Positions 6,980 to 25,941 of a stretch of DNA of 64,000 nucleotides are shown here, one piece after another. The stretch comes from Chthoniobacter flavus. Lineage in GTDB: Bacteria; Verrucomicrobiota; Verrucomicrobiia; Chthoniobacterales; Chthoniobacteraceae. The notes beneath the pieces are model-generated. The model saw nothing but the letters and a program-made list of their open reading frames with translations. It was not told the DNA's origin and made no database searches. Numbering within the stretch: position 1 is the first letter of the stretch; each line of letters starts with the position of its first letter. The stretch is from NCBI GenBank assembly GCA_945861435.1, contig CAMAUX010000004.1:62001-126000 (forward strand), in the 5' to 3' direction. The position numbers and the translations under genes were made by a program.

Positions 6980-7177
6980 CGAATCCCTCCTCCCCTACTG
7001 CGACTCCGCACAGAGTGCATCCGTTACTTCCAAAATTCCCGAGCTTCCCCCCATTTGCACGTTGCGCCCAAATTCAGACGCAACCGCGCGGCGTCCGGAG
7101 CAACCGCTGCTGCACATGGCGAAAAACCTCTCCATCACCCACCATTTATCCCGAAGGGTCGCATAGGCTGTCGAACA

Positions 7178-8413
7178 CTATTTCCCCCGGCCCATTGCTT
7201 CGTTAGCTAACGAACCTCCGGGACCGCTTCCATCACAACGCACTGAAACCCGGCGCGCGAGGACGCGGCGCTCACACACCCAATACAGTAGGCAGCAAGC
7301 CCCAAGCACCCCAATCGATCCTCCAACCGCCATCCAACCCCTCCCGGGCCTGCCCCCAAACCGGCTCCAACAGAAGGCGCTCAGAAGCACCAGAAGCGGG
7401 AAATGGCACACGTACACACTATAAGAACGCTCTCCCAGCCAGCCTAGAGCGACAATCAGGCTGCCTCTCCACCGCCCTTCCACCGTCCACGCGAGCACCC
7501 CGGAGCAAAGCGCCACGTACCCGCACATTCGTGTCCCCGATGCCCCACCACCACACAGCCAGACACTCACTCCTAAAATCACGCTGCCCACTGCTAGGAG
7601 CCCACCCCGTTTTCGCAACACCCCCTGCCAATCCCACTCTGAAAGCCCAGCCCCTAGGATCCACAACGGATAAAGAGACAGAGTCATCCCCAACCAACCC
7701 CACCCGCTCACTCCCGGCAACAGCATCAGCAGCGGCAGCACTCCAAATGCGAGCAATGGTTGCCGACGCCGCACCGCCAACCATGCTGGATAGGCTAGAT
7801 AATACACCACCTCACATCCCAGCGACCAGAGGGGCCCGTTACTCCCAAACCCTCTGCCAAGCGCGCCAGGAACCATGCACGCAGCCGCCAACACCCCCGC
7901 CACCCCATATCCCCAACCCGAGGCGGTGTGATCCAATAGACCGTCCCCCGTCTGCGCCTCGTAAAGCTCCGGCCATAGAACCCCACCCACCCAGTCGCAC
8001 CCCACCGTCAGCAAGAGCGCAAGCAGGTAGGGCGGCCCCAACCTCCACAACCGACGCACAAAAAACTCCCGCCACACCATCCGCGGATCTCCGCCACGCA
8101 ACAGCGCCGCCGCTGAGCGACGATGGATGACAAATCCACTGAGAGCGAAAAACACCATCACCGCCTCGTGTCCGTAGCGCAGGCCCGCACTCATCCAAGC
8201 CAGTGCATCCGCCCCCCAGTGATGAACCTCCTGTGTCCACTGCGCGTGCCCAATCCACAACAACCATCTTGCATGCCCAGCCAGCACATACAGACAAAGA
8301 AACCCTCGCAACGCTTCCAGTCCGGAGCTTTTTCCCTCTTTCCCCATTTCGCTTGCACAGGCGGTTACCGCGGCTGCTTGGAGAGGGTAATATTCCGCAT
8401 TGGATCCACTCAT
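7178..8413 (-). CDS. Membrane acyltransferase, family 3 (OafA/NodX-like)
   Basis: A 411-residue polytopic membrane protein. GLEALRGFLCLYVLAGHARW holds the R-x10-H signature of the family (R36, H47), followed by roughly ten hydrophobic helices and the internal ALSGFVIHRR typical of acyltransferase 3 enzymes. These move acetyl or similar groups onto extracytoplasmic sugars. The ATG shares one base with the stop of the ABC permease gene (TAATG), so translation is coupled. In this locus it most likely O-acetylates the exported polysaccharide. The C-terminus after the last helix is short and has no SGNH domain, so it may work with a partner or be a single-component enzyme. Confidence 0.9.
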   Translation of the reverse strand: MSGSNAEYYPLQAAAVTACASEMGKEGKSSGLEALRGFLCLYVLAGHARWLLWIGHAQWTQEVHHWGADALAWMSAGLRYGHEAVMVFFALSGFVIHRRSAAALLRGGDPRMVWREFFVRRLWRLGPPYLLALLLTVGCDWVGGVLWPELYEAQTGDGLLDHTASGWGYGVAGVLAAACMVPGALGRGFGSNGPLWSLGCEVVYYLAYPAWLAVRRRQPLLAFGVLPLLMLLPGVSGWGWLGMTLSLYPLWILGAGLSEWDWQGVLRKRGGLLAVGSVILGVSVWLCGGGASGTRMCGYVALCSGVLAWTVEGRWRGSLIVALGWLGERSYSVYVCHFPLLVLLSAFCWSRFGGRPGRGWMAVGGSIGVLGACCLLYWVCERRVLARRVSVRCDGSGPGGSLANEAMGRGK

Positions 8414-9285
8414 TAGATCACGTCAGCAAAACTCTTTTCCGTCCGCCGAAAATACGTCACGCCCACCACCAGAAGGATCACCGTGACTCCAAGAGACACC
8501 AGAAAGCCCGCCCAGTGCATCTGCACCTCCCCCCCCAACACCGCCCACCGGAACCCGTCAATCACACCCACCATAGGATTGAGACTGTAAGCGAGAAATC
8601 CAGACTCACCCAGCTTCTCACGCACCACTGTGCTACTGAACCCCACCGGCGAAACATAAAGCCCGAACTGCACCAAAAACGGGATCACATACCGGAAGTC
8701 CCGATAGCGCACGTTGAGCGCAGTCAGTAGCAACCCGGGCCCCAACGCAGCCGCGCACGCCATGCCCGCAAAAACAGGCAGCGCCAGCAACCGCACCCCG
8801 GGCATGAACCCATGCCATGCCATCAATCCACCGAGTAATCCCAGCGAGATCAGGAAGTCCGCCGAGGCCGTCACCACCGCGCTCGCCGGAACAATGAGCC
8901 GCGGAAAATACACCTTCGAAATCAGGTTCGCATTCCCGACGAGGCTCTGGCTTGCGGACGAAACTGCAGAACTGAAGAACATCCAAGGCAAACCACCGGC
9001 GAACACCAAGATCGCGTAAGGCGCGCCGCCCTCGCTCTGCAGTCCAGCCACGCGTCCGAAGACCACAGTCATCACCCCCATGCTCAACAGTGGCTGTAGC
9101 AGCGCCCAGACCACTCCGATGCTTGTCTGCTTATACCGCACGGCTAAATCGCGCGCCGCAAGAATGTAGAAAAGCTCCCGATACCTCCATAAGTCCCCCC
9201 AATAGTTCCTCTCCAACCGCCCACGCTCGATCACAAGGTCGAATCGCTCCGCATCCCCAGCCCCGGCTCGGCCCGCGGCACCCAT
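8413..9285 (-). CDS. Polysaccharide ABC-exporter permease (Wzm-like, ABC-2 family)
   Basis: A 290-residue permease with six predicted membrane helices. RYRELFYILAARDLAVRYKQT followed by GVVWALLQPLLSM is the conserved N-terminal interface helix and first membrane segment of Wzm-type exporters, and NPMVGVIDGFRWA lies near the C-terminal periplasmic part. A frame from GTG 9291 also exists, but ATG 9285 is preferred: a strong GGAGG at 9291-9295 sits five bases upstream of it and would touch a GTG 9291 start. It pairs with the ATPase at 3025-4350, although two genes lie between them. It should export lipid-linked glycan through the inner membrane. Confidence 0.92.
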   Translation of the reverse strand: MGAAGRAGAGDAERFDLVIERGRLERNYWGDLWRYRELFYILAARDLAVRYKQTSIGVVWALLQPLLSMGVMTVVFGRVAGLQSEGGAPYAILVFAGGLPWMFFSSAVSSASQSLVGNANLISKVYFPRLIVPASAVVTASADFLISLGLLGGLMAWHGFMPGVRLLALPVFAGMACAAALGPGLLLTALNVRYRDFRYVIPFLVQFGLYVSPVGFSSTVVREKLGESGFLAYSLNPMVGVIDGFRWAVLGGEVQMHWAGFLVSLGVTVILLVVGVTYFRRTEKSFADVI

Positions 9286-9287
9286 GG

Positions 9288-10703
9288 TCACCTCCCCCCT
9301 CCACTCAGCATCGTGTAAACAGTCTTCACAACAATGCTCAAATCCAGTTGCAGCGAAAAGTGCCGGATATAGTAGAGATCATATTGGAACTTCTCCACCG
9401 CATCCTCTCTTCCCTCTCCGTAGCGGAAATTCACCTGCGCCCATCCCGTAATCCCAGGGTGCACAAGATGCCTCAGGTGATAGTTCGGAATCTGCCCCTG
9501 ATACACCTCTGCGCACCGCACCCACTCCGCCCTCGGCCCGATCAAGCTCATCTCCCCTCGCAACACATTCCAAAGTTGCGGAACCTCGTCGAGCCGACTC
9601 ATTCGCAGCCACCGCCCTATGCGTGTCACCCGAGTATCCCCCTCGCGTGTGTAAATATCCCCTTCATTCTCCCTCATCGTCCTGAGCTTCAAAATCGTAA
9701 AGACCCGGCCGTCCCGCCCCACACGCGCCTGCCGAAAAATCGCGCCCCCGCGGCTCTCCGTGGAGATCAAAGCCGCAGCCACCAGCAGCACCGGGCTGAG
9801 AACAACGAGCGCGCACGCCGAAAAAACCACATCAAACAGCCTCTTGAGCTGGCTGTATACCGTCCCACGCGCCAGACGAAATTCACACGCAAACAGCCAG
9901 TCCGCGCGCACAGCCCCCACATGGACGCGCCTCCACTGCTGCTCATGGAAGGCGTCGACCGTAAGCACCGGCACATCCTTGCAATGCAACTGCGCCAGTT
10001 GCGCGGACACCTCAGCACCCAGCGTTTCAGGATTGCACGCCAGAAGAATCATTTGGAAACGCAGGCCCTCCAATTCCAGAACCCTCTGTAAATTGCCCTC
10101 GACCCGGGGCGACTCCGGCCCGTCCAAATGTGCGGGCACCGCAGTGTCCTCCAGCCCAACAAGGCGCAGACTCCAAGGCAGTCTGGATGCTTGATAATCT
10201 CGATTGAAGCTTCGCACCGCTTCGCCGTCCCCAAGCACCAGAATCGCAAGACGCGCCCTCTGGGCCATCCACCTCGCCCCGAGCATGCGCCTGCTCATCA
10301 AGGACGCCGAAGCCCAAATCGCGAAGGCAGTCGGCAGTAGCAACCGGCTCGGCTTGATGGACTCGTTGTAACTCGACACCACATAGGTGAACAGCACCGC
10401 TCCAAGCGCCGCTCCAGCCGACGCGATCATGTGCTCACTAAAGTAGTTGAGCCGCACAAACTGCGTGCGCCTGTCGTATCCACCCACAAGGAACAAACCA
10501 AACACCCCTACCACTGGCGAAAAAAACAGCGTCAACCAGTCCAAGACACTCTCCGGCAGCAGCAGCACCGTCAGCCAGAAAGCGCCACCCCATCCAACCA
10601 GATCGGCCAGCAGCAAAAGCGCGGGCGCAATCTTCTGCGACAAACTGCGCACCACCTGCGGCTGCGCAGGCACCGCCTCCACGATGGAATCCAAAGCACT
10701 CAT
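9288..10703 (-). CDS. Polyprenyl-phosphate sugar-1-phosphate transferase (WcaJ/WbaP-like)
   Basis: A 471-residue enzyme that starts glycan assembly by moving a sugar-1-phosphate from a nucleotide sugar to undecaprenyl phosphate. The N-terminal 120 residues hold four hydrophobic helices, the middle is a nucleotide-binding-like CoA-binding fold (LAILVLGDGEAVRSFNRD), and the C-terminal 190 residues are the bacterial sugar transferase domain: KRLFDVVFSACALVVLSPVL membrane hairpin, ILKLRTM, and SRLDEVPQLWNVLRGEMSLI then GPRAEW. ATG 10703 is preferred over TTG/ATG positions further up because it gives a four-base ATGA overlap with the upstream glycosyltransferase stop. Its presence shows that the locus encodes initiation as well as export. 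Confidence 0.95.
   Translation of the reverse strand: MSALDSIVEAVPAQPQVVRSLSQKIAPALLLLADLVGWGGAFWLTVLLLPESVLDWLTLFFSPVVGVFGLFLVGGYDRRTQFVRLNYFSEHMIASAGAALGAVLFTYVVSSYNESIKPSRLLLPTAFAIWASASLMSRRMLGARWMAQRARLAILVLGDGEAVRSFNRDYQASRLPWSLRLVGLEDTAVPAHLDGPESPRVEGNLQRVLELEGLRFQMILLACNPETLGAEVSAQLAQLHCKDVPVLTVDAFHEQQWRRVHVGAVRADWLFACEFRLARGTVYSQLKRLFDVVFSACALVVLSPVLLVAAALISTESRGGAIFRQARVGRDGRVFTILKLRTMRENEGDIYTREGDTRVTRIGRWLRMSRLDEVPQLWNVLRGEMSLIGPRAEWVRCAEVYQGQIPNYHLRHLVHPGITGWAQVNFRYGEGREDAVEKFQYDLYYIRHFSLQLDLSIVVKTVYTMLSGGGR
9291..9297 (-). promoter_or_regulatory. Shine-Dalgarno site deciding the permease start
   Basis: On the minus strand the last codons of the sugar-phosphate transferase gene (Gly-Gly-Arg-stop) read as a purine run ending GGGGAGG, five bases before ATG 9285. 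It is one of few clear anti-Shine-Dalgarno matches in the window, and it supports ATG 9285 over GTG 9291. Confidence 0.75.
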
Positions 10704-11839
10704 GAGCAACACGCCGACGCGCCTCCGTGAAACTCAGCGCCCACTCCCTCCCCCGTCAACAGACTCACCAATCGCGCAAGCCCATCCCCATCACCGCCCC
10801 CAAACTCAGTCACCACATCGAGCGCATATCCGGATGAAACCCGTCCGCAAATCCACTCAGCAAGCGCCTCCGCATCTCCGGGCTCAAAACAAGCTGACCG
10901 ATCCTTTCCCTCCACCAACCGCCAGCACGCCCCATTGCGCGCTCCCACCCAGAGCATCGGCCTCGGCATAGCCAAAAGGAGCGCAAGTTTGCTCGGCCAC
11001 AGCAACCCACGCGCCGACGCGACCTGACTAGCCACCAGACAATCACTCTCCAGCAGCGTCGCCACCAGTTCCCTCTCCGGCACGTAAGGCCGGAACCTGC
11101 AACCCTTCAGCCCCAGCGCCGCCGCGTGCTCCCGGGCAGCGCCCCAACTGCCGCCGCCCCCTTGAAATACCAACTCCGCCTCGATACCCCTCCGCTCAAG
11201 AATGGCCTGCGCCTCCAGCAACGTGCGCCACTCGTGCGCCCGGCCAAGGTTGCCCGAATAAATCCACCTCCACGGGAGCCCCGCATGCAAGGTCCGAGGG
11301 GAGGACTGAACAGATGGAATCGAGCGCCCTTCCAACACCCACGGCTGAACGATCTCGGATTCAACGCCATATCCTCGCAGCGTCGCAGCCATGTCCTCAT
11401 CCAGCACCACCACCCTCTCGCAGCCCCGATACGCCGCACGCTGAAACTCCCCGAGGACCCTGCTCAGCCAGCCTTCGCGGAACTCGCCAAGCGCAACCGC
11501 AAGCTCCGGATACAGATCCATAGCCCAATGCACACTGCGCGCACCATGCCACCAAGCAATCACTCCAGCCACAACCGCAAGACACGGCGGAGAGGAACCG
11601 CTCAACACCACTGCCGGCCGCTCCCGCCGCAACCCCTTCCACGCCAGGCGCAACAACGCTATAAACTCACGGACCAACCTCCTACCCGCACCTTGGGAGG
11701 CAAGGTAATCCGCCGCATCGCTCACAAAGTCCACGATGTGCCCGTGCGCCCTCAAGCCATCGGCAACCTCTCCCAGCAACTGCGCTGTCGGAGCTCGATC
11801 AGGCGGCCCGTACTGGTTGAGAAAAAGAAACCTCATCAC
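10700..11839 (-). CDS. Glycosyltransferase family 4
   Basis: A 379-residue GT-B glycosyltransferase. The N-terminal FLFLNQYGPPDRAPTAQLLG segment is the acceptor-side loop seen in WbuB-like GT4 enzymes, RWIYSGNLGRAHEWRTLLEA opens the C-terminal Rossmann half, and YVPERELVATLLESDCLVAS (residues about 270-290) precedes the donor site. It probably adds the second or a later sugar to the lipid carrier. It is the most upstream gene of the minus-strand glycan operon; the intergenic stretch 11840-11955 behind it is short. An ATG immediately after the first would give MRFLF, one residue shorter. Donor sugar unknown. Confidence 0.9.
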   Translation of the reverse strand: MMRFLFLNQYGPPDRAPTAQLLGEVADGLRAHGHIVDFVSDAADYLASQGAGRRLVREFIALLRLAWKGLRRERPAVVLSGSSPPCLAVVAGVIAWWHGARSVHWAMDLYPELAVALGEFREGWLSRVLGEFQRAAYRGCERVVVLDEDMAATLRGYGVESEIVQPWVLEGRSIPSVQSSPRTLHAGLPWRWIYSGNLGRAHEWRTLLEAQAILERRGIEAELVFQGGGGSWGAAREHAAALGLKGCRFRPYVPERELVATLLESDCLVASQVASARGLLWPSKLALLLAMPRPMLWVGARNGACWRLVEGKDRSACFEPGDAEALAEWICGRVSSGYALDVVTEFGGGDGDGLARLVSLLTGEGVGAEFHGGASACCS

Positions 11840-12685: not shown

Positions 12686-15196
12686 ATGTTTCAGGAAAGG
12701 CCCCTCTCCGACCCCTCGCTGCGCTGGCGCGGCATTGTGCTGGTCGGCCTCGGTGCGCCTTCCTTAGGTGGATCCACCTCCCCCGGCGGCCTCGCTCTGC
12801 TGTGCGTCGCCATGGGAACCCTCTTCCTTGTCGCTCCCGCGCAACGGCTCCCTTCAAAAGGATGGCTCCTCCTCGCCGCCGCGCTCATGCTCGCGGGCCT
12901 CACAGCCTTCCTCCCGGCCTCATGGTTTGCACTCCCCCCATGGCGCAGCGCGCTTCAGGAGGCTGGAATCCCGCTGCCGGCCACGCTCTCCCCTCAACCA
13001 TGGAAAAGTGCTGAGTCCCTCCTCACACTCTCCTACGGCCTCCTCTGGTTCCTTTACGTCTTCTCGGAACCGTGGTCCGAAAAGGACCGCCGTCAGGCCC
13101 TCCGCTTCCATGTCGTCGGCATCAGCCTTCTGACCGCGCTCGCCATCCTCGCTCATCTCGCCAAAATCTCCATCCCTCTCTGGCCCAACGATGTCTTCGG
13201 CTTCTTCCCGAATCGAAACCAGACAGCCAACGTCATCGGCCTCGCAGGCATCATGGTCTTCGCCCTCGTCTGGCAAAACACCATCCGCCGCCGCAGGGGC
13301 TCCCGTAAGCTCTTCGCCAGCCTACCCGCCGTCAGCCCGCTCCCCACAGGCGACAGCACCCCAAGGCACACAACCCCTACTTCCGAACGCTTCTCCCTGC
13401 GCCGCCTTTCCCTCAAGGACAGCCGATGGAAGTGGACCTGGTTCTTCACCCTCCCCATCCTCCTCGCCGCCCTCATCCTCGACTCCTCCCGCGCCGGCAT
13501 CGCTCTCTTCTTTTTCGGCGGCGCAGGCGCCATCCTCTGCGCCATCGCATTCTCCTCTTCCCGTAAAAACGCCTCCCTCGGCCTCGCATCCATCCTCTTC
13601 TTACTCAGCGGCTTTTTCCTTTTCGGCGGCAACACCCTCCAGCGCATCCGCAATACGACCGACCCAGTGGGTGAACTGCGCGGCGCCCTGCAGGCCGACT
13701 GCCTCGACCTCGCCGCCATTTCTCCATGGACGGGCATCGGTCTCGCCAACTTCCAAGCCGTCTTCGCCATGCACAGATCCCGCTCCGGCGGTATCGCAGA
13801 TGCCATCCACCCCGAAAGCGACTGGCTCTGGACCGCCGCAGAACTCGGCTGGCCCGCGGCACTCCTTCTCCTCGCTGCCTTCGGTTTCTGGATCTGGAAA
13901 TCCCTCCCCTTCAAACACGGTTCCGACCGTTTCCTGCGTGCCACCACGCTTCTGGCCGGAGTTGCTTTCGCAATCCATGGCTTCTTCGACGTCTCGGGTC
14001 ACCGCCCGGGCTCGCTCTGGCCCGCCATCCTCCTCTTGAGCCTCTCCATCCACCCCAGCCATCGGAGCCCAGTCAGCTCCCGCGCCACCGCACTTTCCCG
14101 TGCATGCGGCGTGGCCCTCCTCATTACCGGCGCGATCGTCCTGCTGGAGTCCACCAACCTCTGCCGTTCAAACGCATCGTCTCCGGACCAAACTCCGCTT
14201 CCGACCGCACTGCCATCGCAACGCCTTGAGCGCATCCATGCCCAAGTGAAGGCCGCGGCCGCGGCTGACGATTACGACGCCATGCTCGCGCTCACCCAAG
14301 CGGGCCTACGCCTCGCCCCCTTGGACGCCACCCTCCACTTCCAGAACGCCGCCGCTCGCGTCCTCCTCGGCCCGGACTCCACTCAGGCCGAAAACACCTT
14401 CGCCATAGTCCAACTCTTACAACCCCGGTGGGTGCAGTCCTGCTGGCAGGAGGGGCAGATTTGGATCGTCGTCGATGAACCCGAACGCGCTTTCACCGCC
14501 TGGCAAAAGGCGCTCAATCGCACCCCAAGCACCAGCGCCTGTGCGGAACTCTACCGGCGCATCCTTGTAGCCACGGGCCCTCGCGCCGCACTCCGCAGCG
14601 CTCTGCGCGAACTCGCCGACCAGAACTCCGAACTCCTCCTCTGCTTTCTTGAAACCTCCCCGGAGGATGAAATCCATCTGGAACTCGAACAACTCCTCGC
14701 CCGCGACCCCTCCCTCCGTGGTCTTACTCCTAGCCTGCGTTCACGCCTCTTCCAGCTCTGGCACGCTCGCGGCCCGCGCGACCAACTCCTCCGACTTCTC
14801 AAGCAGGACTCCACTCTCCTCGCTGATGGCTGGCGCTGGGTCGCAGAGGAGTCCGCCTCCAACCGCAACTTCGAGGCCGCCTACCAACTCGTGCGCAAAT
14901 TCGGAGGCCGGCCTTCCATCCCCTCTCTCAAATCTTCCTCCGCCGTCTCGGAACTCGAACGCAAGTTCGTCTACCAGCCCAGCGACCGCGTTGTCGGCCT
15001 CATGCTCGCCCAAGCACAGCAGCGCGCCGGCAGTCATTCCGACGCTATTAGAACCGTCCGCCAACTCCGCCGACTCCCCGACCCACCAGCCTACCTCGCA
15101 CAGATGGAGGCCGAACTCCACGCACAGCTCAACCAGTGGGAAGCTGCGTGGAACTGCTGGAAGAACCCCTCCCCCGCCTCTCCCCGGCAGCCTTGA
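12686..15196 (+). CDS. O-antigen ligase/polymerase-like membrane protein with C-terminal TPR half
   Basis: An 836-residue protein. Residues 1-490 are polytopic; DSSRAGIALFFFGGAGAILC, GIGLANFQAVFAMHRSRSGG and the HPESDWLWTAAELGWPA loop match the Wzy_C (PF04932) family of O-antigen ligases, polymerases and PglL-type protein O-oligosaccharyltransferases, which use undecaprenyl-linked glycan in the periplasm. Residues about 515-830 are helical TPR-like repeats (DYDAMLALTQAGLRLAPLDA; ERAFTAWQKALNRTPSTSAC). Wzy_C plus TPR is common in ligases that modify proteins. It reads away from the glycan operon and converges on the giant surface-protein gene. No Shine-Dalgarno is seen. Ligase, polymerase and protein-glycosylation roles cannot be separated from sequence alone. 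Confidence 0.83.
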   Translation: MFQERPLSDPSLRWRGIVLVGLGAPSLGGSTSPGGLALLCVAMGTLFLVAPAQRLPSKGWLLLAAALMLAGLTAFLPASWFALPPWRSALQEAGIPLPATLSPQPWKSAESLLTLSYGLLWFLYVFSEPWSEKDRRQALRFHVVGISLLTALAILAHLAKISIPLWPNDVFGFFPNRNQTANVIGLAGIMVFALVWQNTIRRRRGSRKLFASLPAVSPLPTGDSTPRHTTPTSERFSLRRLSLKDSRWKWTWFFTLPILLAALILDSSRAGIALFFFGGAGAILCAIAFSSSRKNASLGLASILFLLSGFFLFGGNTLQRIRNTTDPVGELRGALQADCLDLAAISPWTGIGLANFQAVFAMHRSRSGGIADAIHPESDWLWTAAELGWPAALLLLAAFGFWIWKSLPFKHGSDRFLRATTLLAGVAFAIHGFFDVSGHRPGSLWPAILLLSLSIHPSHRSPVSSRATALSRACGVALLITGAIVLLESTNLCRSNASSPDQTPLPTALPSQRLERIHAQVKAAAAADDYDAMLALTQAGLRLAPLDATLHFQNAAARVLLGPDSTQAENTFAIVQLLQPRWVQSCWQEGQIWIVVDEPERAFTAWQKALNRTPSTSACAELYRRILVATGPRAALRSALRELADQNSELLLCFLETSPEDEIHLELEQLLARDPSLRGLTPSLRSRLFQLWHARGPRDQLLRLLKQDSTLLADGWRWVAEESASNRNFEAAYQLVRKFGGRPSIPSLKSSSAVSELERKFVYQPSDRVVGLMLAQAQQRAGSHSDAIRTVRQLRRLPDPPAYLAQMEAELHAQLNQWEAAWNCWKNPSPASPRQP

Positions 15197-15288: not shown

Positions 15289-18200
15289 CTAGCTCACAAA
15301 GACCAAAGCCGGTTTCGGAGGCACCCCCGTCGTGGGCACCATGATCTCCCGCAAGGCCGCCGTCAGGTTGCTCCCGCGGAAAAGGTTCACCGACATATTC
15401 GGGGCCACATCGGAATCCGCCATGATCTGTGCGCGCAAGCTGTCTGCATCATCCGCCCCAATCACCGTTAGCACGTCCCCTTTGAGCGTCCCAAGGTTCG
15501 CGAAGTTCACACGGTCATTGAAGAACGAGACCGGGGTGGCCGCGAAGACATCCAGCATCGGTTCGTCGCGCCCCACTAACAACTCATCAGAATCCTCATC
15601 AGATCCAAGCTCAATGGTCACCTTGCCCTTGAACTCGCTGATTCCATAAAGGCCGCGCTGTTCAATCTGAACACTATCGGCACCCTCCCGCGTCCGCACA
15701 TTCATGGCTGCCACCGTGGTCACGTTGTCCAGACGCACCTTGGTCACGCCGATGCCTCCGTCGATGTCCATGACAGGAGTTGCAGCAGCCTTCGAACCCG
15801 GCGCCCCACCCACGGAGATGTTCTGAAGGTCAAACACCTCGCTCACAAGGGAGGCGAGCGAAGCAGCGGCAACCTCTCCGAGGCCAGTGTACAACCCGGC
15901 CTGCGAGGCAGAACGGTTACTCAAGGCAACCGCATCCTTGAGCACCAGCCCCCCATAGACACCCGACACACTCTTGAACGAAATCTCCTGCTCCGCATCC
16001 AAACGGTTGATCAGGTAATGATCAACCGTCGAGGCCGGCAGTGAGGTCAGATCGGCCACTGTCGTCTCATCCACAGCATCCACCAACTGGAAGCTGTTCA
16101 GCCCAAGAGTCGGAAGCACCACCTTGTAGGTCTGCCCACTCACCAGCCCCCCAATTGCATTGGAGGACGCGTACACCACAAAATCTCCGTCCTGAAATCC
16201 AAGTCGAACCTCGGCACCTGCGTCCGTCTCATTCGCCAAAGTGATTCTATCCGCCCCCACACTCACACCCACATCCGTGGCCCGCACAAAGGAAATCGCC
16301 GTGTCCTTCACGTTCTCCACCAAATCCACCGCCACAGGCACACCCGCCGCCGCGTCTTCCGCCGTGAGAGCCAACCGCACACTCGTGTCACTCTGCCGGA
16401 TCACATAGTACGCCCCGCCATTGACCGCCTTCGCCGCCAGACGAATGTCTGCGTCTTCAGCATTCGTCTTGGCGAACACCACTGCATCACCCGTGTGCAA
16501 CCGGCCACTATAGGAGCCCAGATCCATCTCGTCCGTGGCCTTATTGAAGTCGCCGCTAGCAACCAAATCCCCGAAGGCCACCGCCACATTCCCCCCCTCC
16601 ACGTCATCTGCCGCAAGCAAGACAAGCACCTTGGACTGATCACCCTCACCAGCAGCCGTCGCATCCTCCGAAGACAACGCCAGCTTCAACTCAGTCCCAC
16701 TGACAGCCACAGCGTACAGCGGCGCATCGCTTCCCACCACACTCGCCACCCGCAAGCTCAAGTCCCCGGGCGCCGTCTTTGTGAACACAACCACGCCCCC
16801 ATCCTTCACATGATCAGCATAAGTCTCGAAAACCACAGCGTCCGTTCCCTTATCAATGGTTCCGATCGTCGTGAGGTCTTCAAACGCGACCGCCACATCG
16901 CCATCGATGAGGTCCAGCACCTTGCTCAGGTCGCCCGGAGTGTTTTCGTCCCCAGCAGCAGCCGCGGCATCCTCCGCTGACAGAGCCAGCTTCAACTCAG
17001 TCCCACTCACCGCCACAGCGTACAGACTGGCTCCGTCCGCGATCACACGTGCAAGACGCACATCCGCGTCCTCCGCTGCCGTCTTCGAAAACACCACCGG
17101 ATCTCCCGTCACCAACACAGACGTACGACCCACAAAAGATCCGATCGTGTCCCCCTCCTTGGAAATCGTCGCTGCCGCCACGAAATCCTCGAACGCAACC
17201 CCTACATCCCCATCGATGAGGTCCAGCACTTTGCTGGAATCGCCTGGTGTAATGCCATCCCCAGCAGCGGCCGCAGCATCCTCCACTGACAGCGCCAACT
17301 TCAACTCGGTCCCGCTCACAGCCACGGCGTACAGACTCGTTCCGTCCGCGATCACTCGCGCAAGACGCACGTCCGCGTCCCCGGAGGCCGTCTTCGAGAA
17401 AATCACCGGATCTCCCGTCACCAAACCCGATGAATGGCCCACGAAAGTTCCCACCGTGTCCCCGCCCTTCGCGATCGTCGCGGTGGCCACGAGATCCTCA
17501 AACGCCACCCCTACGTTCCCATCGATGAGGTCGAGCGCCGCACCCTCCTGCGACAACGCCAGCTTCAACCCCGTCCCGCTCACAGCCACCGCATAGAGGG
17601 GCGTCCCGTCCTCGATCACCCGCGCAAGACGCACGTCCGCGTCCCCGGGTGCTGCCTTGGTAAACTGAACCGCGTCCCCCGTCTGCAGCGTATGGGCGCT
17701 CCCAAAAACCGTATCCGATCCCTTGTCCACGACGCCGCTCCCAACCACATAACTCAACCCCAACGCGCCATCGTCCAGCAGGTTCACCACAGCCGGCGTA
17801 AGATCCCCCTCACTCGGCGCAACCGCAGTCAACTGCAGCTTGGTGTTATCGGCCCCGGTCTTGGCGTAGAAAGTCGTGCCGTCGACAATCTCCCCCGCAA
17901 GTCGGATGTCCGCCGTGCTCGGCTTCACAAACTCCACCGCCTGCCCACTGGCCAGCACAACGGGACTCCCCAGCGTAAACTCATCCGTGTTCTTATCGAA
18001 GCTCCCGAACACCCCGGTGAGAACGTTCACACCCAACTGGTCTGTGATCAAATCCACCACTTTTGTCAAATCCCCGCCCGCCGCGGCCGTGGCATCCTCA
18101 GCCGACGTCGCCAACTGGATCGTCCTGACGCCCGTGCTCACCACCCAGTACGTCTCTCCTCCCACGCTCACCTTTGCCCCGGTCGCAAGCCCGTGGCCCG

Positions 18201-21200
18201 CCACGAACGTGATCGTATCATCCAACGAAGTCTGATCGCCGGTCAGCAGGGTGCTATTCTGCACCACTACCTTCACCGCGCTTGAGTCCGCAGAAAGATC
18301 CTCTGTCACAGGCGTCCCCGCGATCGCATCCGCACGCGTTGCCGCCACTTTGATAACCTTGTTGTCCGCAGTGGTCACCACGTAATGGGTGGCATTCCCG
18401 AAGCGGATCGCATCCCCCGTCGTCAACCCATGGCTCGCCGAAAAGGAGAGCGTTTCGTCGTTGCCCGAAATGCTCGCGCTCAGCACCAGATTCACCCCGC
18501 GCACCCCATTGTCTCCCACATCCAATACGGTCGGCGTCAGCCCCGAGGCATCCCCTGAAGAACCGGCAAAGCGAATGTGTGTGGCCGCACTCTCATCCGT
18601 GGTCACCACCGCATAGTAGGATTTCCCCTGCTCGAGCACGCCCACCTGCTTGTGCAAAATCACACCGTTCGTCTTCACGTACACCACAGTCTGGCCGTTC
18701 GTGAGCCCATGGGGTTGCGTGAATGTCACTTCGTCCGTCCCGGCATCCACCGAGGCGCCGCGACCAATCACCTTGATGTCACCCGCTCCATCATCCGCAA
18801 AGTCCAAGAACTTCCCTGCCGTCGCGTCCTGTGCGTTCTTCGCCAACCGCACAGCGCCCGTGTCCGGATCCACCACGGCGTAGTACGTGTGCGACTGCTC
18901 AAGCACCCCGTCCGCCACGCGTAACGCAGGGTTCGTCTTCGCCAGATACTTCAACGTATCCCCAGTCACCAACCCGTGCGCTCGGGCGGCACCTTCAGCA
19001 TCCAAAAACGAGATGAAATCCGTGGCCGCATTGGTCTTGCCGTTCCCGAGATTCGTCACCGTGAAAGTCCCCGAACCATCGTCCGCAAAATCCAAGAACT
19101 TCCCGGTCATCGCGTCCGTTGCATTCTTCGCCAAGCGCACAACGCCCGTATTCGGATCCACCACGGCGTAGTACGTCTGCGCCGCATCCAACACCCCGTC
19201 CGCCACGCGTAACGCAGGATTCGTCTTCGCCAGATACTTCAACTCATCCCCCGTCACCAGTCCATGCGCACGGGCGACATTTTCCCCATTCAAAAACGAG
19301 ATGACATCGGTCCCCGCACTGGTCCTACCGTTGCCGAGATTCGTCACCGTGAACGTCCCCGAACCGTCATCCGCGAAGTCCAAGAACTTTCCAGCCAATG
19401 CGTCCGGCCCGTTCTTAGCCAACTTCACCGTGCCGTCCTGTACCACCGCATAGTACGTGTGCGACTGCTCAAGGACCCCATCCGCCACGCGCAACGCGGA
19501 GTTCGTTTTCTTCAGATACTTCACCAAATCCCCGGTTAACAAACCGTGTTCGCGAGCCACGCCAGTCCCATCGGCAAAAGTCACGGAATCACTGGTCTCA
19601 TCAGCGCCCGTCATCCCAGACGCGAGATCTGTCAACGTGAACGTCCCGGAACCTGCATCCGCAAAATCCAGCACCTTCCCATCCTTTTCCAAGCGCACAG
19701 CACCCGTTTCCGGATCCACCACCGCTTTGTAGGTTCCACCGTCGCTCAGAACTCCGGAGACGTAGCGCAAGGTCGCCTGCTCCAAATAGGTGAGCTCATC
19801 TCCCGTCACCAGACGGTGCGTGACCGTGGCGCCGACCGCATCCTTGAACGTGATAGCCCCCGTGGTTGCACTCGCCGTGCCAAGACTAAGGTTGGTTAAA
19901 GCAACCCGCCCAACACCCGTGTCAGCAATGTCCAGAACGTTGCCGGCCACTGCATTCTCAAGACTGTCCGCCAACTTCACCGTGCCGTTCTCCACCACCG
20001 CATAGTAGGTGCCCCCGTCTGTGATCACCCCGGACACCACCCGCAGGTCCGCGTTCTTCACATAGTTCACCAAATCCCCCGTCTGCAACCCGTGCGCTGT
20101 CGCGAAGGTGACCACATCGCTGTCTGAATCACCATTGGTCGCCAGACTCGCCGCCACCACCGGAGTCGCAGTCGCGTTGAAACGCAAAGCCGGCAGCTTT
20201 ACCCCACCAAGATCCACCGCCACCTTCGTCGTGAAATACCCGTCCGCAATCACATCGAAGGAATCCGCCCCTGAGCCCGTCGTCACATTCACGCCGCCCG
20301 CGCTCTGCAGGTCAGCCGCCACAATCTGGAAACTCGCCGGCCCGCTCACCTGCTTGGAAGCGATGTCGGATTTGAGCACCAATTTGTCGACACCCACAGC
20401 CACTGTCACTTGGGCGTCCTCAGGCCGTTCCAACACCGGTGCAGTGTTATAACCCACCACTGCAATCGAGGCCGTCTGCTGTGCCGTCAGCGCCGCAGTC
20501 TGCTGCGCGGTCATGCCGACGGTTGCAGCAGGCGCCAACTTCACGATCCCCGTCGCAGCGCCCAGCGATAGCATGCCACCCGTGAGGGACACATCCACCA
20601 CCCGCGCCCCAGTCGCCGTCTGAAAATTCACCTCCAAACCACCGCTCGCCGTCAGGTTATCCACGTCCAGATTCAATCGATCACTCGCCGTCCCTGCACC
20701 GCGCCCAAGGAAGAGTAACGAAGTGCCCGCCCCAGCGTCCGACACCGTGGTCGGCTTCAGCGTGCTGGCACCTAGTTTGAGAACAGGTGTGCTCGCCAGC
20801 ACCTGGTTGAGACCTGCGCCGGGATCAAACACAATGCCCCCAAGCGACAAATCCATCGACTGCGCAAACAGCGCCAGAGTGTCATCGTCAGCCCCGCCAG
20901 CGTAATCAATCACGTTGCCGCTGGCGTTCTTCGCCGAGCCTTTCACCGTCGTGCCACCAAAGGTCACGGAATTCGCTCCCGCCCCCCCCGAGAAACTCAG
21001 AGCTCCAAGAGTGAGCGAATCGACGGTGCTCATGAAGGAGTCGCTACCATCCAGCCCGACGTACTCGATCGAATTACCCATGCCAGCCGCCGGCAAGGCC
21101 GCCTGCGTCGCCGCAAACCCGAGCACCGCGCTCGTGCCCGTGAGAGTGAGCGAGTTGCCCCCCCCAAACCCCTGCACCTTGAGCGCGCCAACCGTCGTCG

Positions 21201-24200
21201 CTGACTGTGACTCAATCCTCACCGTGTCGGCATCCGCCCCACCGCTGAAAGCAAGGGAGTGGCCCGTGGAAAGCGATCCCAACTTTGCCGTGTCGCCGGC
21301 GATCCGCAGACTGTTCTCACCAGCCTTTGCGTCGATGCTCACGCCCCCGGCCAGCACCGAAGTCGCAGACAAAATCTCCACGCGATCGACTCCCGCCCCC
21401 CCGTCAAAAAACACCGACGGCCCAAAAGCTGTTTTTCCGGTGGCTTTGACACCCAGCGTCGCCTGTGTTCCGGATACCGTCAGACTATTCTCACCCCCAC
21501 CCGCGGTCACCGAGACCGATCCAGCTGCCGCCAGAGTTTCCGCCGCAAGGCGAACCGTGTCCTTCATTTCGCCACCCACAAAAAGCACGGAGTCACCACC
21601 CGTCAGCGCGCCCAGCTTCGCACTCAATCCGCCAAGCCTGAACTCATTGATTCCGGTCTTTGCGTCCACAGAAATCCCGCCGGCAAACACCAAGGCGGTG
21701 GACTTGACATCCACAACGTCTTCCGAGGTGCCACCCACCACCTTCAAGGAATCACCGGTGGCCACCTTGCCCAGCGTTGCAGCCCCACCACTAACCTCCA
21801 CCAAATTGCTGCCATTACCCGTCGTTACCTCAACAGACCCCGTCGCCGTAAGCGTATCAGCTCTCAAAAGCACCCTGTCAGCGCCTTGAGACGTTGCCCC
21901 TGTCCCAAGGTATTGAACCGACTGGCCCGTACCCAAAGCACCGAACTTTGCCGAGGCCCCCTCGACGCGCAATTCGTTTGTACCTCCACCCATCTCCGAT
22001 TTCAGACCACCCGCGAGGACGCTGCCAGCAGCGGATACCTCAACGGTGTCATTATCGGTTCCACCGCGGAACACCACCGACGCCCCGAGAAGGACGGCCT
22101 TTGGAGTGACGTTCGCGCCGATCGTCGCCAGCGTCCCCGACACCTTCAACTTGTTCTCTCCATTCCCCAACCCCACAGAAACCCACCCTGCAGCCGCCAG
22201 CGTCTCAGCGCTGAGAACCACCGTATCACTGCCCCCACCACCAGAAGCCACCAAAGACTCGCCCGTACTCAACGTCCCAACTTTCGCATTGGCTCCGCTC
22301 ACAGTGAGCGCATTTAGGCCGGCACCCCCATCGTAGGAGATTCCGCCAGCCAATACGGACGTATCTGCCGAAAATATCACACTGTCGTCGCTATCACCCC
22401 CGGCATAGTTGACCGATTCTCCAGTCACCGGCACCCCCGTAGCCGCCCTCTTGCCCAACGTGATCTGGTTCCCCAACACGGTCACAGAATTGACGCCAGA
22501 ACCCGGCTTCACATCCAAGGAACTCGAGGTGGTCAGGCTCTGCGCTGTCACTGCCACCGTGTCCTTACCGCCCGCCGCCGCAAAACTGATCGACGCCCCG
22601 GTTGCACCAATCGATCCCACCTTCGCCGAGGTTCCCGTCAACACGAACAAGTTGCCCACTTCGCCAGCCCCACCCACATCCACATTCACGCCACCCGCCA
22701 GCACAGACGTGATGGAGACAAGACGCACGGTGTCGTCGCCGGTGGTGCCGACAAACTTCACGGAATCCCCGGCCGTAGCCTTGGCGGTGCCCGGACTCCG
22801 GATCCCCAAAGTCGCTAGAGTGCCCGATACCTCCAGAGAGTTATTTCCAGCGCCAGCAGACACGTCCACGCACCCCGCCGTCGTGAGCGTCTGCGCCCCG
22901 AGGGTGACGGTGTCGTTGTCTCCAAGTCCCGAGAAAAGCACAGACTCCCCGGTCGCTAACGCTCCCACACTCACGCTTCCACCTCCCACGCTCAAAACGT
23001 TCGCCCCAGCGGAACCCTCCATACGAATCCCGCCCGCAAGCACCGATGTGCTGGAAAGAATCTCGACCTTATCCGCCTGCGCTCCGCCGGTAAGAATCAC
23101 GGAACTTCCCAAGCCCAGCTTGAGTGTATCTCCCGTACCCACCGCCGTCTTCTTGCCTAGGTTCGCCAAATTGCCAGAAATGGTCAGCGTGTTGACCCCT
23201 CCATTCCCCGTCACCTCAACGCTCCCTCCGGCAACCAGAGCTCGCGCAGTCAAGGAAACCGTATCGCCGTCGTCGCCCCCAGAATAACTCACCGACTCGC
23301 CCACCGTTCCTGCGGCACCCCCGGCCACCACCCGCGCGCCCAGCTTCACGGAGCTCCCACTGATCGCCAGCGAATTGGTGTTGCTACCAGCGGTCATGCT
23401 GATGCCTCCCCCCAACACCGAGTTGGTCGCCGAAATCCCCACCGAGTCTAACCCCGTTGCCCCGACGAACCGCACCGAATCCCCAGTGGTCTTTTTCAAA
23501 CCAATTGCCACCTGGGTACCAGACACTGCCAGCGTGTTGGTTCCATCAAATCCCAAAAATTCCACCGATCCAGCCGCTGTAAGGTTCGCCGCCTTCAGTA
23601 AAAGGGTGTCGCCACCACCATCGCCGGTGAAGAGCACCGATTCGCCGTCGTTCCTCGCACCTAATTTCACATTAGACCCTCCCACCGTCAGCGCATTGAC
23701 ATCATCGCCACCGTCGCCCCCCGCATCCAGACGAATCCCCCCCGCCAGCACCGACGTGTCCGCAGTCAACTCAAGCGTATCCTTACCCCCAGCACCCACC
23801 AACCTCAACGAATCGCCCTGACCAGCGAGGATGCCAGGCGCACTCGCCGTAACGTTGCGGCCAATCGTGACACTGGCGCCCGACACCGTCACCACGTTCT
23901 CCCCGGCTCCCGCACCAACCTCAACGCTACCGGAAGCCACCAACGTCTGTGCGGAAAGCGACACCGTGTCATTACCCGCGCCTCCCCCTGTGAAGCTCAA
24001 CGACTCCCCGCTCACCAGACTGCCCACTTTCGCCGATGTCCCGCTGACGGCCACTGTGTTGTTGCCCCCACCCGCAGAAAATTTGATCCCACCTGCTGCC
24101 ACAGAGGTTCGCGCGGAGATCAGCAAGCTGTCAGCCTGCCCGCCCCCTTCAAAAAACACCGATTCACCCAAAAGCGGAGTCTTGGGAGCGGCCTTGATCC

Positions 24201-25941
24201 CAATCGTCACCAAGGATCCAGACAACTCCAGCTTATTGACCCCGTCGCCGACCGACATGCTGATGGAACCCGCAAGCGCTGTCGTCTGCGAAGCAAAGGT
24301 CACCAAGTCCCCTCCTCCCGCACCCGAGAAAATCAAAGACTCTCCGCTAGCAATCGCACCAAACTTCGCAGTCGTCCCACTCACCGCCAGAACATTATTA
24401 GTCCCATCCTTTCCAGCAAACCCAACCCCGCCAGCAAGCGTGCTGTTCGATGTCTCAATGCTCAGTCGATCAAAGCCCGAACCACCGAGGAAACTCACTG
24501 ACTCTCCCACTCTCTCTGTGGAGGTGTTCGTCTTGAGTGCATTCTTGCCCACCAGCAGCGTACCCCCGCGCATCGCAAGCCCGTTATCCGCATCCTTGCC
24601 GTCAAAATACAAAGACCCCTTCAGCGTCGTCGTGCCTTGCACGTTGAAAACCATACTGTCCTCCCCCGCGCCCCCAAGGTAGCTCAAGGACCGTCCGTCC
24701 ACTCCTGCAGCACTGGCAATCACGGACACCCCAATCGTCACCGACTTTGCCGTCACATTTGCGGCTTGGGAATATGCAGGCGCCTCCGACTTCGCAGCCG
24801 CCGTCACCGAAACCGTCGCCGCAGCCACCGAATCGTTGAATTCCTCGGTCGCATCCGCAACCTCATCATCCGTCAGAGCACGCCCCAGACTCTCCTCGAG
24901 ATCGCTCAGCTTGCCACTCAACGTCCCAAGCGCATCCAGCGCACCCGGCAGATCCCGGTCCACAAAACGCTGCGTCAGCATGGCAACCGTCGGCGACTCC
25001 CCGAGATTCAAAAACGCATCCTTCGCAATCGTCAAAGTCCCGCCTCCAATCTCAAGCCGCTCGGATTCCTGCCCCCCAATCACCCTCAAGTTCCCAAGAC
25101 TGGTCACCGCCGAGGTGATCGACAACAGTCCGCCCTTCGATCCCGTGCCGCTGAAATCCACCGCCAACTCGCCACCCACAGAAGTAAGGGCCCCTCCGAA
25201 CGCCACCCGATTCCCGTCGAAACTGTCCCCAGCCCCCATGTTCACCAACACGTTGCCGGTCACCGCCACGTTCTTTGCCGAAAACTGATCGTCCCCGCCA
25301 CGCCCATTGAAAGTAAGTGATTTGAGCGTCTTGATTCCCACCAATGAGAAATTGTCCGATCCAGCCCCTTCCGCCGTCCCCTCATTCACCACCAGCGCAG
25401 TGAGCGCACCCGTCAAATCCAGCCTCCCTGTAGCCCCCACACTCTGCTTTCCACCCACCAAAATCTCCTGCGTACGAGCGACCCCTCCCACCAACTCCAA
25501 GGAAGTCCCATCGTCCAAAAGATCCTTCGCCGTTCCCGCCATCGCATTGGTGTAATTCTCCGCAAGCTTGATCTGATTGGGGGCGACTTTAATGACGTGA
25601 TAAGTAGTCCCATCGACCAACCCCCCCACGCTTCCTTCCCCCGCCGTGTAACGAATGGTCTGCCCCGTCACCAGCGGATACACGTCATTCAACGTCACCT
25701 CGTTGCTGTCTGAGTTCACCTCAGCAAATCCCACAGGGAAAGTCTCCCCGGCTGCCTCCACCCGAAAATGCGTCGCATCCACCTGCGCGATCTCCACCTG
25801 AACATCCCCAAACGAGGCCAACTTCAAGGCCCCAACGCTGGCGCTTTTCGCGTCCACCACATAACTCGAAATTACTAGGAGCGCGGGCGCTATCCGGTTC
25901 TCAAGGGGCTCGATGCAGGAGGCGCGTAAGGAGGTCTTCAT
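15289..25941 (-). CDS. Giant repetitive surface protein with LEPLENRIAPA N-terminal motif
   Basis: About 3550 residues. ATG 25941 (MKTSLRASCIEPLENRIAPA) is chosen because this motif normally sits at the extreme N-terminus of giant PVC exported proteins; the frame is open to 26034. After one isolated type-B repeat (about residues 55-145) and a 250-residue unique section come about 24 type-A repeats of 60-70 residues (roughly residues 407-1773; consensus around TSVLAGGI, GESVxFxGG and LTVSGTxATLG). Fifteen type-B repeats of 80-103 residues follow (about 1935-3325; HGLxTGDxVxY, LRVADGVL, TYYAVV, VKLA, LDFADDGSGTF), then a unique C-terminus. A-repeats look like beta-solenoid turns rich in Gly, Asp and Thr. 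I see no membrane anchor, PEP-CTERM or autotransporter barrel. It is probably an adhesin or cell-coat protein. Confidence 0.88.
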   Translation of the reverse strand: MKTSLRASCIEPLENRIAPALLVISSYVVDAKSASVGALKLASFGDVQVEIAQVDATHFRVEAAGETFPVGFAEVNSDSNEVTLNDVYPLVTGQTIRYTAGEGSVGGLVDGTTYHVIKVAPNQIKLAENYTNAMAGTAKDLLDDGTSLELVGGVARTQEILVGGKQSVGATGRLDLTGALTALVVNEGTAEGAGSDNFSLVGIKTLKSLTFNGRGGDDQFSAKNVAVTGNVLVNMGAGDSFDGNRVAFGGALTSVGGELAVDFSGTGSKGGLLSITSAVTSLGNLRVIGGQESERLEIGGGTLTIAKDAFLNLGESPTVAMLTQRFVDRDLPGALDALGTLSGKLSDLEESLGRALTDDEVADATEEFNDSVAAATVSVTAAAKSEAPAYSQAANVTAKSVTIGVSVIASAAGVDGRSLSYLGGAGEDSMVFNVQGTTTLKGSLYFDGKDADNGLAMRGGTLLVGKNALKTNTSTERVGESVSFLGGSGFDRLSIETSNSTLAGGVGFAGKDGTNNVLAVSGTTAKFGAIASGESLIFSGAGGGDLVTFASQTTALAGSISMSVGDGVNKLELSGSLVTIGIKAAPKTPLLGESVFFEGGGQADSLLISARTSVAAGGIKFSAGGGNNTVAVSGTSAKVGSLVSGESLSFTGGGAGNDTVSLSAQTLVASGSVEVGAGAGENVVTVSGASVTIGRNVTASAPGILAGQGDSLRLVGAGGKDTLELTADTSVLAGGIRLDAGGDGGDDVNALTVGGSNVKLGARNDGESVLFTGDGGGDTLLLKAANLTAAGSVEFLGFDGTNTLAVSGTQVAIGLKKTTGDSVRFVGATGLDSVGISATNSVLGGGISMTAGSNTNSLAISGSSVKLGARVVAGGAAGTVGESVSYSGGDDGDTVSLTARALVAGGSVEVTGNGGVNTLTISGNLANLGKKTAVGTGDTLKLGLGSSVILTGGAQADKVEILSSTSVLAGGIRMEGSAGANVLSVGGGSVSVGALATGESVLFSGLGDNDTVTLGAQTLTTAGCVDVSAGAGNNSLEVSGTLATLGIRSPGTAKATAGDSVKFVGTTGDDTVRLVSITSVLAGGVNVDVGGAGEVGNLFVLTGTSAKVGSIGATGASISFAAAGGKDTVAVTAQSLTTSSSLDVKPGSGVNSVTVLGNQITLGKRAATGVPVTGESVNYAGGDSDDSVIFSADTSVLAGGISYDGGAGLNALTVSGANAKVGTLSTGESLVASGGGGSDTVVLSAETLAAAGWVSVGLGNGENKLKVSGTLATIGANVTPKAVLLGASVVFRGGTDNDTVEVSAAGSVLAGGLKSEMGGGTNELRVEGASAKFGALGTGQSVQYLGTGATSQGADRVLLRADTLTATGSVEVTTGNGSNLVEVSGGAATLGKVATGDSLKVVGGTSEDVVDVKSTALVFAGGISVDAKTGINEFRLGGLSAKLGALTGGDSVLFVGGEMKDTVRLAAETLAAAGSVSVTAGGGENSLTVSGTQATLGVKATGKTAFGPSVFFDGGAGVDRVEILSATSVLAGGVSIDAKAGENSLRIAGDTAKLGSLSTGHSLAFSGGADADTVRIESQSATTVGALKVQGFGGGNSLTLTGTSAVLGFAATQAALPAAGMGNSIEYVGLDGSDSFMSTVDSLTLGALSFSGGAGANSVTFGGTTVKGSAKNASGNVIDYAGGADDDTLALFAQSMDLSLGGIVFDPGAGLNQVLASTPVLKLGASTLKPTTVSDAGAGTSLLFLGRGAGTASDRLNLDVDNLTASGGLEVNFQTATGARVVDVSLTGGMLSLGAATGIVKLAPAATVGMTAQQTAALTAQQTASIAVVGYNTAPVLERPEDAQVTVAVGVDKLVLKSDIASKQVSGPASFQIVAADLQSAGGVNVTTGSGADSFDVIADGYFTTKVAVDLGGVKLPALRFNATATPVVAASLATNGDSDSDVVTFATAHGLQTGDLVNYVKNADLRVVSGVITDGGTYYAVVENGTVKLADSLENAVAGNVLDIADTGVGRVALTNLSLGTASATTGAITFKDAVGATVTHRLVTGDELTYLEQATLRYVSGVLSDGGTYKAVVDPETGAVRLEKDGKVLDFADAGSGTFTLTDLASGMTGADETSDSVTFADGTGVAREHGLLTGDLVKYLKKTNSALRVADGVLEQSHTYYAVVQDGTVKLAKNGPDALAGKFLDFADDGSGTFTVTNLGNGRTSAGTDVISFLNGENVARAHGLVTGDELKYLAKTNPALRVADGVLDAAQTYYAVVDPNTGVVRLAKNATDAMTGKFLDFADDGSGTFTVTNLGNGKTNAATDFISFLDAEGAARAHGLVTGDTLKYLAKTNPALRVADGVLEQSHTYYAVVDPDTGAVRLAKNAQDATAGKFLDFADDGAGDIKVIGRGASVDAGTDEVTFTQPHGLTNGQTVVYVKTNGVILHKQVGVLEQGKSYYAVVTTDESAATHIRFAGSSGDASGLTPTVLDVGDNGVRGVNLVLSASISGNDETLSFSASHGLTTGDAIRFGNATHYVVTTADNKVIKVAATRADAIAGTPVTEDLSADSSAVKVVVQNSTLLTGDQTSLDDTITFVAGHGLATGAKVSVGGETYWVVSTGVRTIQLATSAEDATAAAGGDLTKVVDLITDQLGVNVLTGVFGSFDKNTDEFTLGSPVVLASGQAVEFVKPSTADIRLAGEIVDGTTFYAKTGADNTKLQLTAVAPSEGDLTPAVVNLLDDGALGLSYVVGSGVVDKGSDTVFGSAHTLQTGDAVQFTKAAPGDADVRLARVIEDGTPLYAVAVSGTGLKLALSQEGAALDLIDGNVGVAFEDLVATATIAKGGDTVGTFVGHSSGLVTGDPVIFSKTASGDADVRLARVIADGTSLYAVAVSGTELKLALSVEDAAAAAGDGITPGDSSKVLDLIDGDVGVAFEDFVAAATISKEGDTIGSFVGRTSVLVTGDPVVFSKTAAEDADVRLARVIADGASLYAVAVSGTELKLALSAEDAAAAAGDENTPGDLSKVLDLIDGDVAVAFEDLTTIGTIDKGTDAVVFETYADHVKDGGVVVFTKTAPGDLSLRVASVVGSDAPLYAVAVSGTELKLALSSEDATAAGEGDQSKVLVLLAADDVEGGNVAVAFGDLVASGDFNKATDEMDLGSYSGRLHTGDAVVFAKTNAEDADIRLAAKAVNGGAYYVIRQSDTSVRLALTAEDAAAGVPVAVDLVENVKDTAISFVRATDVGVSVGADRITLANETDAGAEVRLGFQDGDFVVYASSNAIGGLVSGQTYKVVLPTLGLNSFQLVDAVDETTVADLTSLPASTVDHYLINRLDAEQEISFKSVSGVYGGLVLKDAVALSNRSASQAGLYTGLGEVAAASLASLVSEVFDLQNISVGGAPGSKAAATPVMDIDGGIGVTKVRLDNVTTVAAMNVRTREGADSVQIEQRGLYGISEFKGKVTIELGSDEDSDELLVGRDEPMLDVFAATPVSFFNDRVNFANLGTLKGDVLTVIGADDADSLRAQIMADSDVAPNMSVNLFRGSNLTAALREIMVPTTGVPPKPALVFVS
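15970..20140 (-). repeat. Fifteen tandem type-B repeats inside the giant gene
   Basis: Successive units encode HG-L-x-TGD, RLARVIADG or LRVADGVL, YYAVV/LYAVAVSG, LKLALS/VKLAKN, and LDLIDGD/LDFADDGSG. Unit length varies from about 80 to 103 codons. Two blocks are almost identical at the DNA level: 18780-19560 with a 288-base period, and 16680-17350 with a 306-309-base period. The remaining units are more diverged. Confidence 0.85.
20620..24720 (-). repeat. About 24 type-A repeats inside the giant gene
   Basis: Units of 60-70 codons end in SGTxATLG or SGxSAKLG. In the middle of the block, units carrying (S/N)SVLAGGI alternate regularly with units carrying TLxAAGSV, so the real period is a dimer of about 130-145 residues. 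Units near both ends are more diverged, which is usual for tandem arrays that turn over from the middle. Confidence 0.8.

Follow-up and report, generated by a model that had tools for sequence, protein, structure and literature searches.

What kind of protein results when a single gene carries two unrelated repeat families, and how could such a gene have arisen? The question is raised by a giant open reading frame in a 64,000-nucleotide stretch of Chthoniobacter flavus DNA (contig CAMAUX010000004.1), the whole of which is called the window below. An earlier note, made by reading the letters, had described about 24 A units followed by 15 B units, with one stray B copy, in a single frame of about 3550 residues. 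Repeat HMMs bear this out: they return the same unit counts, with 33 A-half and 16 B matches in the real 3550-aa sequence and none in 50 whole-protein shuffles. The frame opens with an ATG at 25941 and closes with the stop at 15289-15291; another ATG in the same frame is present 31 codons further upstream (26034), but the relatives begin at the 25941 position. No significant match to the whole protein was found in Pfam, NCBIfam or PDB sequences. Its parts are as follows.

15289..25941, minus strand: whole gene, 3550 aa, 352 kDa, pI 4.4, two cysteines (values computed from the composition of the protein)
25882..25911, minus strand: EPLENRIAPA tag, residues 11-20, a variant of E-x-L-E-x-R-I-A-P-A
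24700..25881, minus strand: N-terminal core, residues 21-414, common to A-only relatives and interrupted by one B module
25486..25713, minus strand: early 'stray' B unit, residues 77-152, inserted in the N-terminal core, with PHROG tail-fibre and baseplate-wedge profile matches
20542..24699, minus strand: A array, residues ~415-1800, 24 units of ~53-64 aa with two half-coils each, predicted right-handed beta-helix
20197..20334, minus strand: conserved coil, residues 1870-1915, directly before the B array, matched by the C-terminal profile of B-less relatives
16042..20136, minus strand: B array, residues 1936-3300, 15 units, predicted small beta-barrels, inserted in the core
15292..16008, minus strand: conserved C-terminal core, residues 3312-3550, where A-like coils resume; no recognised anchor

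The window comes from a draft genome of 105 contigs, and the earlier note had itself raised a misassembly of two genes. However, the order N-core, A, B, C-core recurs in a single 1651-aa ORF of an independently assembled congener, a Lake Erken Spartobacteria MAG (G003, Erken-D2_bin-0191, CAIURC010000177.1), whose protein consists of the tag, N-core, A coils, six B units and C-core, with its B array at the site corresponding to that of the window. Because an independent MAG shows the same order, we do not regard the gene as a misassembly, and the chance that two genes were joined artificially appears negligible.

Two repeat families with different predicted folds

Each A unit comprises two half-coils of about 24 aa, and the units are mostly paired as dimers of about 112 aa in the repeat HMMs, with 35–57% identity among dimers. 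An AlphaFold model of a 226-aa A segment (pLDDT 91.8, pTM 0.89) predicts a right-handed parallel beta-helix. The model aligns with Cthe_2159 (Z 16.2, rmsd 2.9), the Awp3b adhesin (Z 14.2, rmsd 3.2), HxuA (Z 13.1, rmsd 2.9) and the Ca-dependent antifreeze protein 3p4g (Z 12.2, rmsd 2.7), matches that support a fold class and not kinship, as repeats often score high. The predicted helix is called right-handed because right-handed beta-helices align at an rmsd of about 3 Å, whereas left-handed ones (LpxA, GlmU) fit only above 11. Foldseek gave no significant match of the A model in the PDB, and tblastn with the window's own A block gave no phage match. A contains more RTX-like motifs than expected (21 against 4.6).

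For B, the predicted structure of two units (pLDDT 86.3) is a small beta-barrel that, judged from this model, would be closest to the FCCH domain of E1 enzymes. The FCCH region accounts for 18 of the first 20 rows of a VIA comparison, at Z up to 4.5 and rmsd 3.1–3.3 over about 80 residues, a level of Z that can arise by chance arrangement; Foldseek against the PDB returned no significant match. The earlier claim of two unrelated modules would have failed on a common fold, which the two structure models rule out, one being a predicted beta-helix and the other a predicted small beta-barrel.

Sequence profiles of B point in the same direction as its model, with matches to the P22 coat I-domain (E 0.005), endosialidase (0.08) and, in the same FCCH stretch, Uba1 (0.78). 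The Pfam family End_beta_barrel (PF12195) was detected in 5 of the 14 B pairs (best 5.7e-5), the first window pair giving none, and the best PF16190 value among the 14 pairs was 0.093; the B pairs stay below the curated cut-off of both families, and the whole congener protein scores 13.5 bits against a cut-off of 35. Phage profiles add to this. The stray B unit matches the PHROG tail-fibre (38233; 3.4e-6) and baseplate-wedge (2885; 1.6e-5) families, as does the congener B array (4.3e-42 and 9.7e-53, respectively), which places both in this phage module family, while the window B block alone matches only phrog_7530 (3.2e-4). Identity between the congener array and cyanophage tail fibres reaches 43% (Prochlorococcus phage P-HM2); the window's own B block, an array too diverged, gave no phage match by tblastn. 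Kinship of B with phage-type barrels is proposed because the methods agree, although each gives only a weak signal for the units of the window protein.

Among the B units there are subgroups, two of which have 68–81% internal identity, and TRF arrays in the B region have periods of 309 and 288. At the level of sequence, subgroups of up to 81% identity mark recent tandem duplication. Giant proteins of a gammaproteobacterium, Bradyrhizobium and planctomycetes contain B-like units as well. In addition, one congener protein (L038:3023-6508, plus strand) has a Sec-like signal peptide with one B unit directly after it and a cyclophilin-like stretch, the signal and the cyclophilin having been assigned by eye.

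B modules within an A-type core

The A-type beta-helix family, to which the window protein belongs by its N-core, A coils and C-core, includes A-only proteins of 555–588 aa in the same bacterial family and an A-only 960-aa paralogue on contig C21 of the window's genome. Two other congeners have no A matches, and a C-core search of a phylum-wide sample of 240 genomes yielded, apart from the genes of the window's own genome, only three weak matches.

Profiles built from the B-less relatives show how the two repeat families are arranged. A C-terminal model, built from their last ~240 aa, matches the window protein in two segments, model positions 12-57 at residues 1870-1915 (4e-7) and 63-165 at 3338-3451 (7e-14), which adjoin in the model, whereas in the protein the B array separates them by 1400 residues. 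Likewise, the N-terminal model matches with positions 4-58 at residues 7-66 and 60-195 at 165-312, the early B unit lying between, and the congener, whose protein has no early B copy, matches this model without a break. Since both profiles split around B stretches, these stretches are insertions in an otherwise collinear core of A type, which took up B modules at two sites.

This arrangement modifies the earlier description. Two modules in series had been suggested: the families are indeed distinct, but the B array and the stray copy both interrupt the A-type core. The 24-unit A array and the 15-unit B array stand as separate blocks, yet not without mixing, as A-like coils also occur in part of the N-core (~165-312) and after the B array (~3338-3520), the latter coils matching the C-terminal part that is conserved in A-only relatives. 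The C-terminus, said to lack a recognised anchor, does lack one but is not featureless, being a conserved family region. The premise of a single repeat family in most giant adhesins is unsafe, as a tagged 2498-aa paralogue in the same genome (L011:5169-12665, minus strand) combines a glycine-rich GGxGG repeat, four B units and flagellin-hook-like repeats (glycine-rich and flagellin hook IN labels assigned by eye).

A recurring N-terminal tag and export

The N-terminus had been quoted as LEPLENRIAPA and taken for an export or surface-targeting signature. The letters read CIEPLENRIAPA, not LEPLENRIAPA; what holds is a recurring tag that precedes diverse large proteins. The window's genome has nine copies of the pattern E-x-L-E-x-R-I-A-P-A, and 15 of the 40 genomes of its family carry it, with 1–25 copies each; the reversed control pattern gave zero matches. 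It heads 34 large proteins that are for the most part unrelated, and is often preceded by a basic stretch. These occurrences make it a real tag of the lineage. The ending APA would fit an A-x-A cleavage site, in which case cleavage would follow it.

The tag region lacks a hydrophobic core of the Sec type: no 15-residue segment around the tag is strongly hydrophobic, the mean Kyte-Doolittle value in tagged proteins staying at or below about 1.8. The LEPR-XLL model NF012209 has no match at the N-terminus of the window or congener protein, while a gammaproteobacterial protein used as positive control scored 25.5 bits against a cut-off of 17. Pfam gave no autotransporter barrel or TPS domain in the window protein, and no signal peptide or secretion system was identified for it. 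The C-terminal PEP-CTERM signal has seven matches in the genome and none in this protein. Two PEP-CTERM matches in the same genome (G000:C18:81023-81094 and G000:C3:117783-117854) fall within open frames 9072 and 5247 aa long, which are further giant proteins with a different sorting signal.

The tag is patchy in distribution and near all-or-none in each of the genera g5 and g9, the pattern to be expected if a machine were gained or lost whole; in g5, genomes G007, G013, G017, G021, G028 and G031 carry it and G025, G035 and G323 do not. Two candidate exporters were rejected. A secondary SecA_DEAD plus HlyD module, a hybrid with type I secretion suggested by earlier work (PMC4452313), fails on genomes G000 and G007, both of which have many tagged genes and a single SecA_DEAD. 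Type I HlyD does not go with the tag, as it exceeds the cut-off in genomes that have no tag, while most genomes with the tag lack it; the one HlyD over the cut-off in the window's genome adjoins another repeat protein. No type I secretion genes lie beside the window gene, where the neighbours examined are polysaccharide and oxidoreductase genes. Elsewhere, type I secretion ABC-like and HlyD genes directly follow an LTSTQVAAL-type repeat protein (L085:1-5105, L086:2-5884); such genes are present in the two congeners with an A+B giant, and HlyD over the cut-off is absent in the two without the giant.

A literature search returned no paper on E-x-L-E-x-R-I-A-P-A. We tentatively suggest, with rather less than even confidence, that an undescribed system for export or sorting uses the tag as its signal and handles whole sets of large surface proteins in some Spartobacteria; the window protein would be a very large client of this system, grown by multiplication of a phage-tail module within a beta-helix. 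As related genomes in a single family have either as many as 25 tagged genes or no such gene, a comparison of tag-bearing with tag-free genomes is a way to look for the machine concerned and offers a handle on an unexplained export tag.

Proposed role and likeness to known systems

We lean slightly towards a protein that a planktonic lake-water Spartobacterium exports, very probably to its cell surface or matrix, and that most likely serves as an adhesin or matrix tether; in it, a beta-helix stalk would bear inserted phage-tail-type barrels. In outline, N-core, A array and C-core would together form a right-handed parallel beta-helix serving as a stiff stalk, which may have grown longer by duplication of two-unit blocks. 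Two sites of the core took up the phage-tail-type B module, and at one of these sites it was multiplied to 15 copies; the barrel array would leave the stalk before the chain comes back to the conserved coils at the C-terminus. The probable role of the barrels is surface contact or spacing, and the tag would mark the protein for export or sorting. We infer the surface location, the adhesion or matrix role and what the barrels bind. In an Aeromonas hydrophila RTX adhesin, domains leaving a split host domain tend to be ligand-binding (PMC12077191), and by this analogy the B array would be the first candidate for binding. No ligand site was found in the window protein, and Pfam gave no match to a toxin, enzyme or known adhesion domain.

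The barrels could instead be plain extenders that set reach and spacing in a purely structural matrix or surface-layer element, binding nothing in particular. Recent local duplication of B, evident in the subgroup identities and TRF periods given above, fits length variation, as does a copy number that differs freely between congeners (15 in the window protein, 6 in the congener). However, the split-domain precedent of the characterised adhesin and the occurrence of B relatives in phage tail fibres and baseplates speak for binding, and we consider the purely structural role possible but somewhat unlikely. A contact weapon against other microbes, as which giant proteins of the PVC lineage have been interpreted (PMC12057145), is highly improbable here given that neither Pfam nor NCBIfam detects a toxin or hydrolase domain.

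The neighbouring genes bear on a further alternative:

12686..15196, plus strand: Wzy_C (O-antigen ligase family) with a TPR-like tail, convergent neighbour; a 42% identical gene adjoins the A-only C21 paralogue
4442..11839, minus strand: polysaccharide biosynthesis genes (glycosyltransferases, acyltransferase, bacterial sugar transferase)

The B units might bind glycans, their target being a polysaccharide, perhaps the product of the neighbouring cluster, which the adjacent Wzy_C would make or attach. Besides the glycosyltransferase cluster next door, the endosialidase barrel as closest Pfam family of B and the recurrence of a convergent Wzy_C at the paralogous C21 locus (834 aa aligned) are consistent with such a role. 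Yet the C21 paralogue has a Wzy_C neighbour and no B units, so Wzy_C does not track B, and the congener locus has no Wzy_C neighbour. These observations weaken the case for Wzy_C acting on B units in particular and make glycan binding of this kind improbable; the neighbourhood gives a hint of a connection to surface glycans rather than to B.

The preferred reading, a beta-helix stalk with inserted barrels, has several partial counterparts. RTX adhesins with split domains, such as AhLap of A. hydrophila (PMC12077191), are likewise giant surface proteins with a solenoid host domain from which another domain leaves and returns, but the window protein inserts a 15-barrel array in place of one domain and has no type I secretion genes beside it. 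The RTX nonapeptide family PF00353 has no match in the window protein and reaches 0.24 in the congener C-terminus. HxuA, Awp3b and MpAFP, right-handed beta-helix adhesins or exoproteins, share the predicted fold of A, although without a significant sequence match, and no two-partner-type secretion domain was found in the window protein. LEPR-XLL proteins (NF012209) are likewise giant repeat proteins with a short L-E-x-R motif close to the N-terminus, and one of them, from a gammaproteobacterium, bears B units as well; the window tag differs in reading E-x-L-E-x-R-I-A-P-A and falling outside the LEPR-XLL model.

For B, the phage endosialidase beta-barrel (PF12195), E1 FCCH (PF16190) and the P22 coat I-domain would share its predicted fold class and give weak, concordant sequence matches. 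All three are themselves inserted in larger host proteins. In the window, by contrast, B is tandemly multiplied in a bacterial beta-helix protein and lies below Pfam cut-offs. The module also stands in tandem in cyanophage tail-fibre and gp7 baseplate-wedge repeat proteins, from which the window differs in the host protein. The locus illustrates how a giant, probably surface-located protein grew: unit duplication lengthened a conserved core, predicted to be a beta-helix, and a module type common to phage tail fibres entered the core at defined sites and then multiplied. Compared with these systems, the novelty is in the combination of modules and tag, not in either fold.
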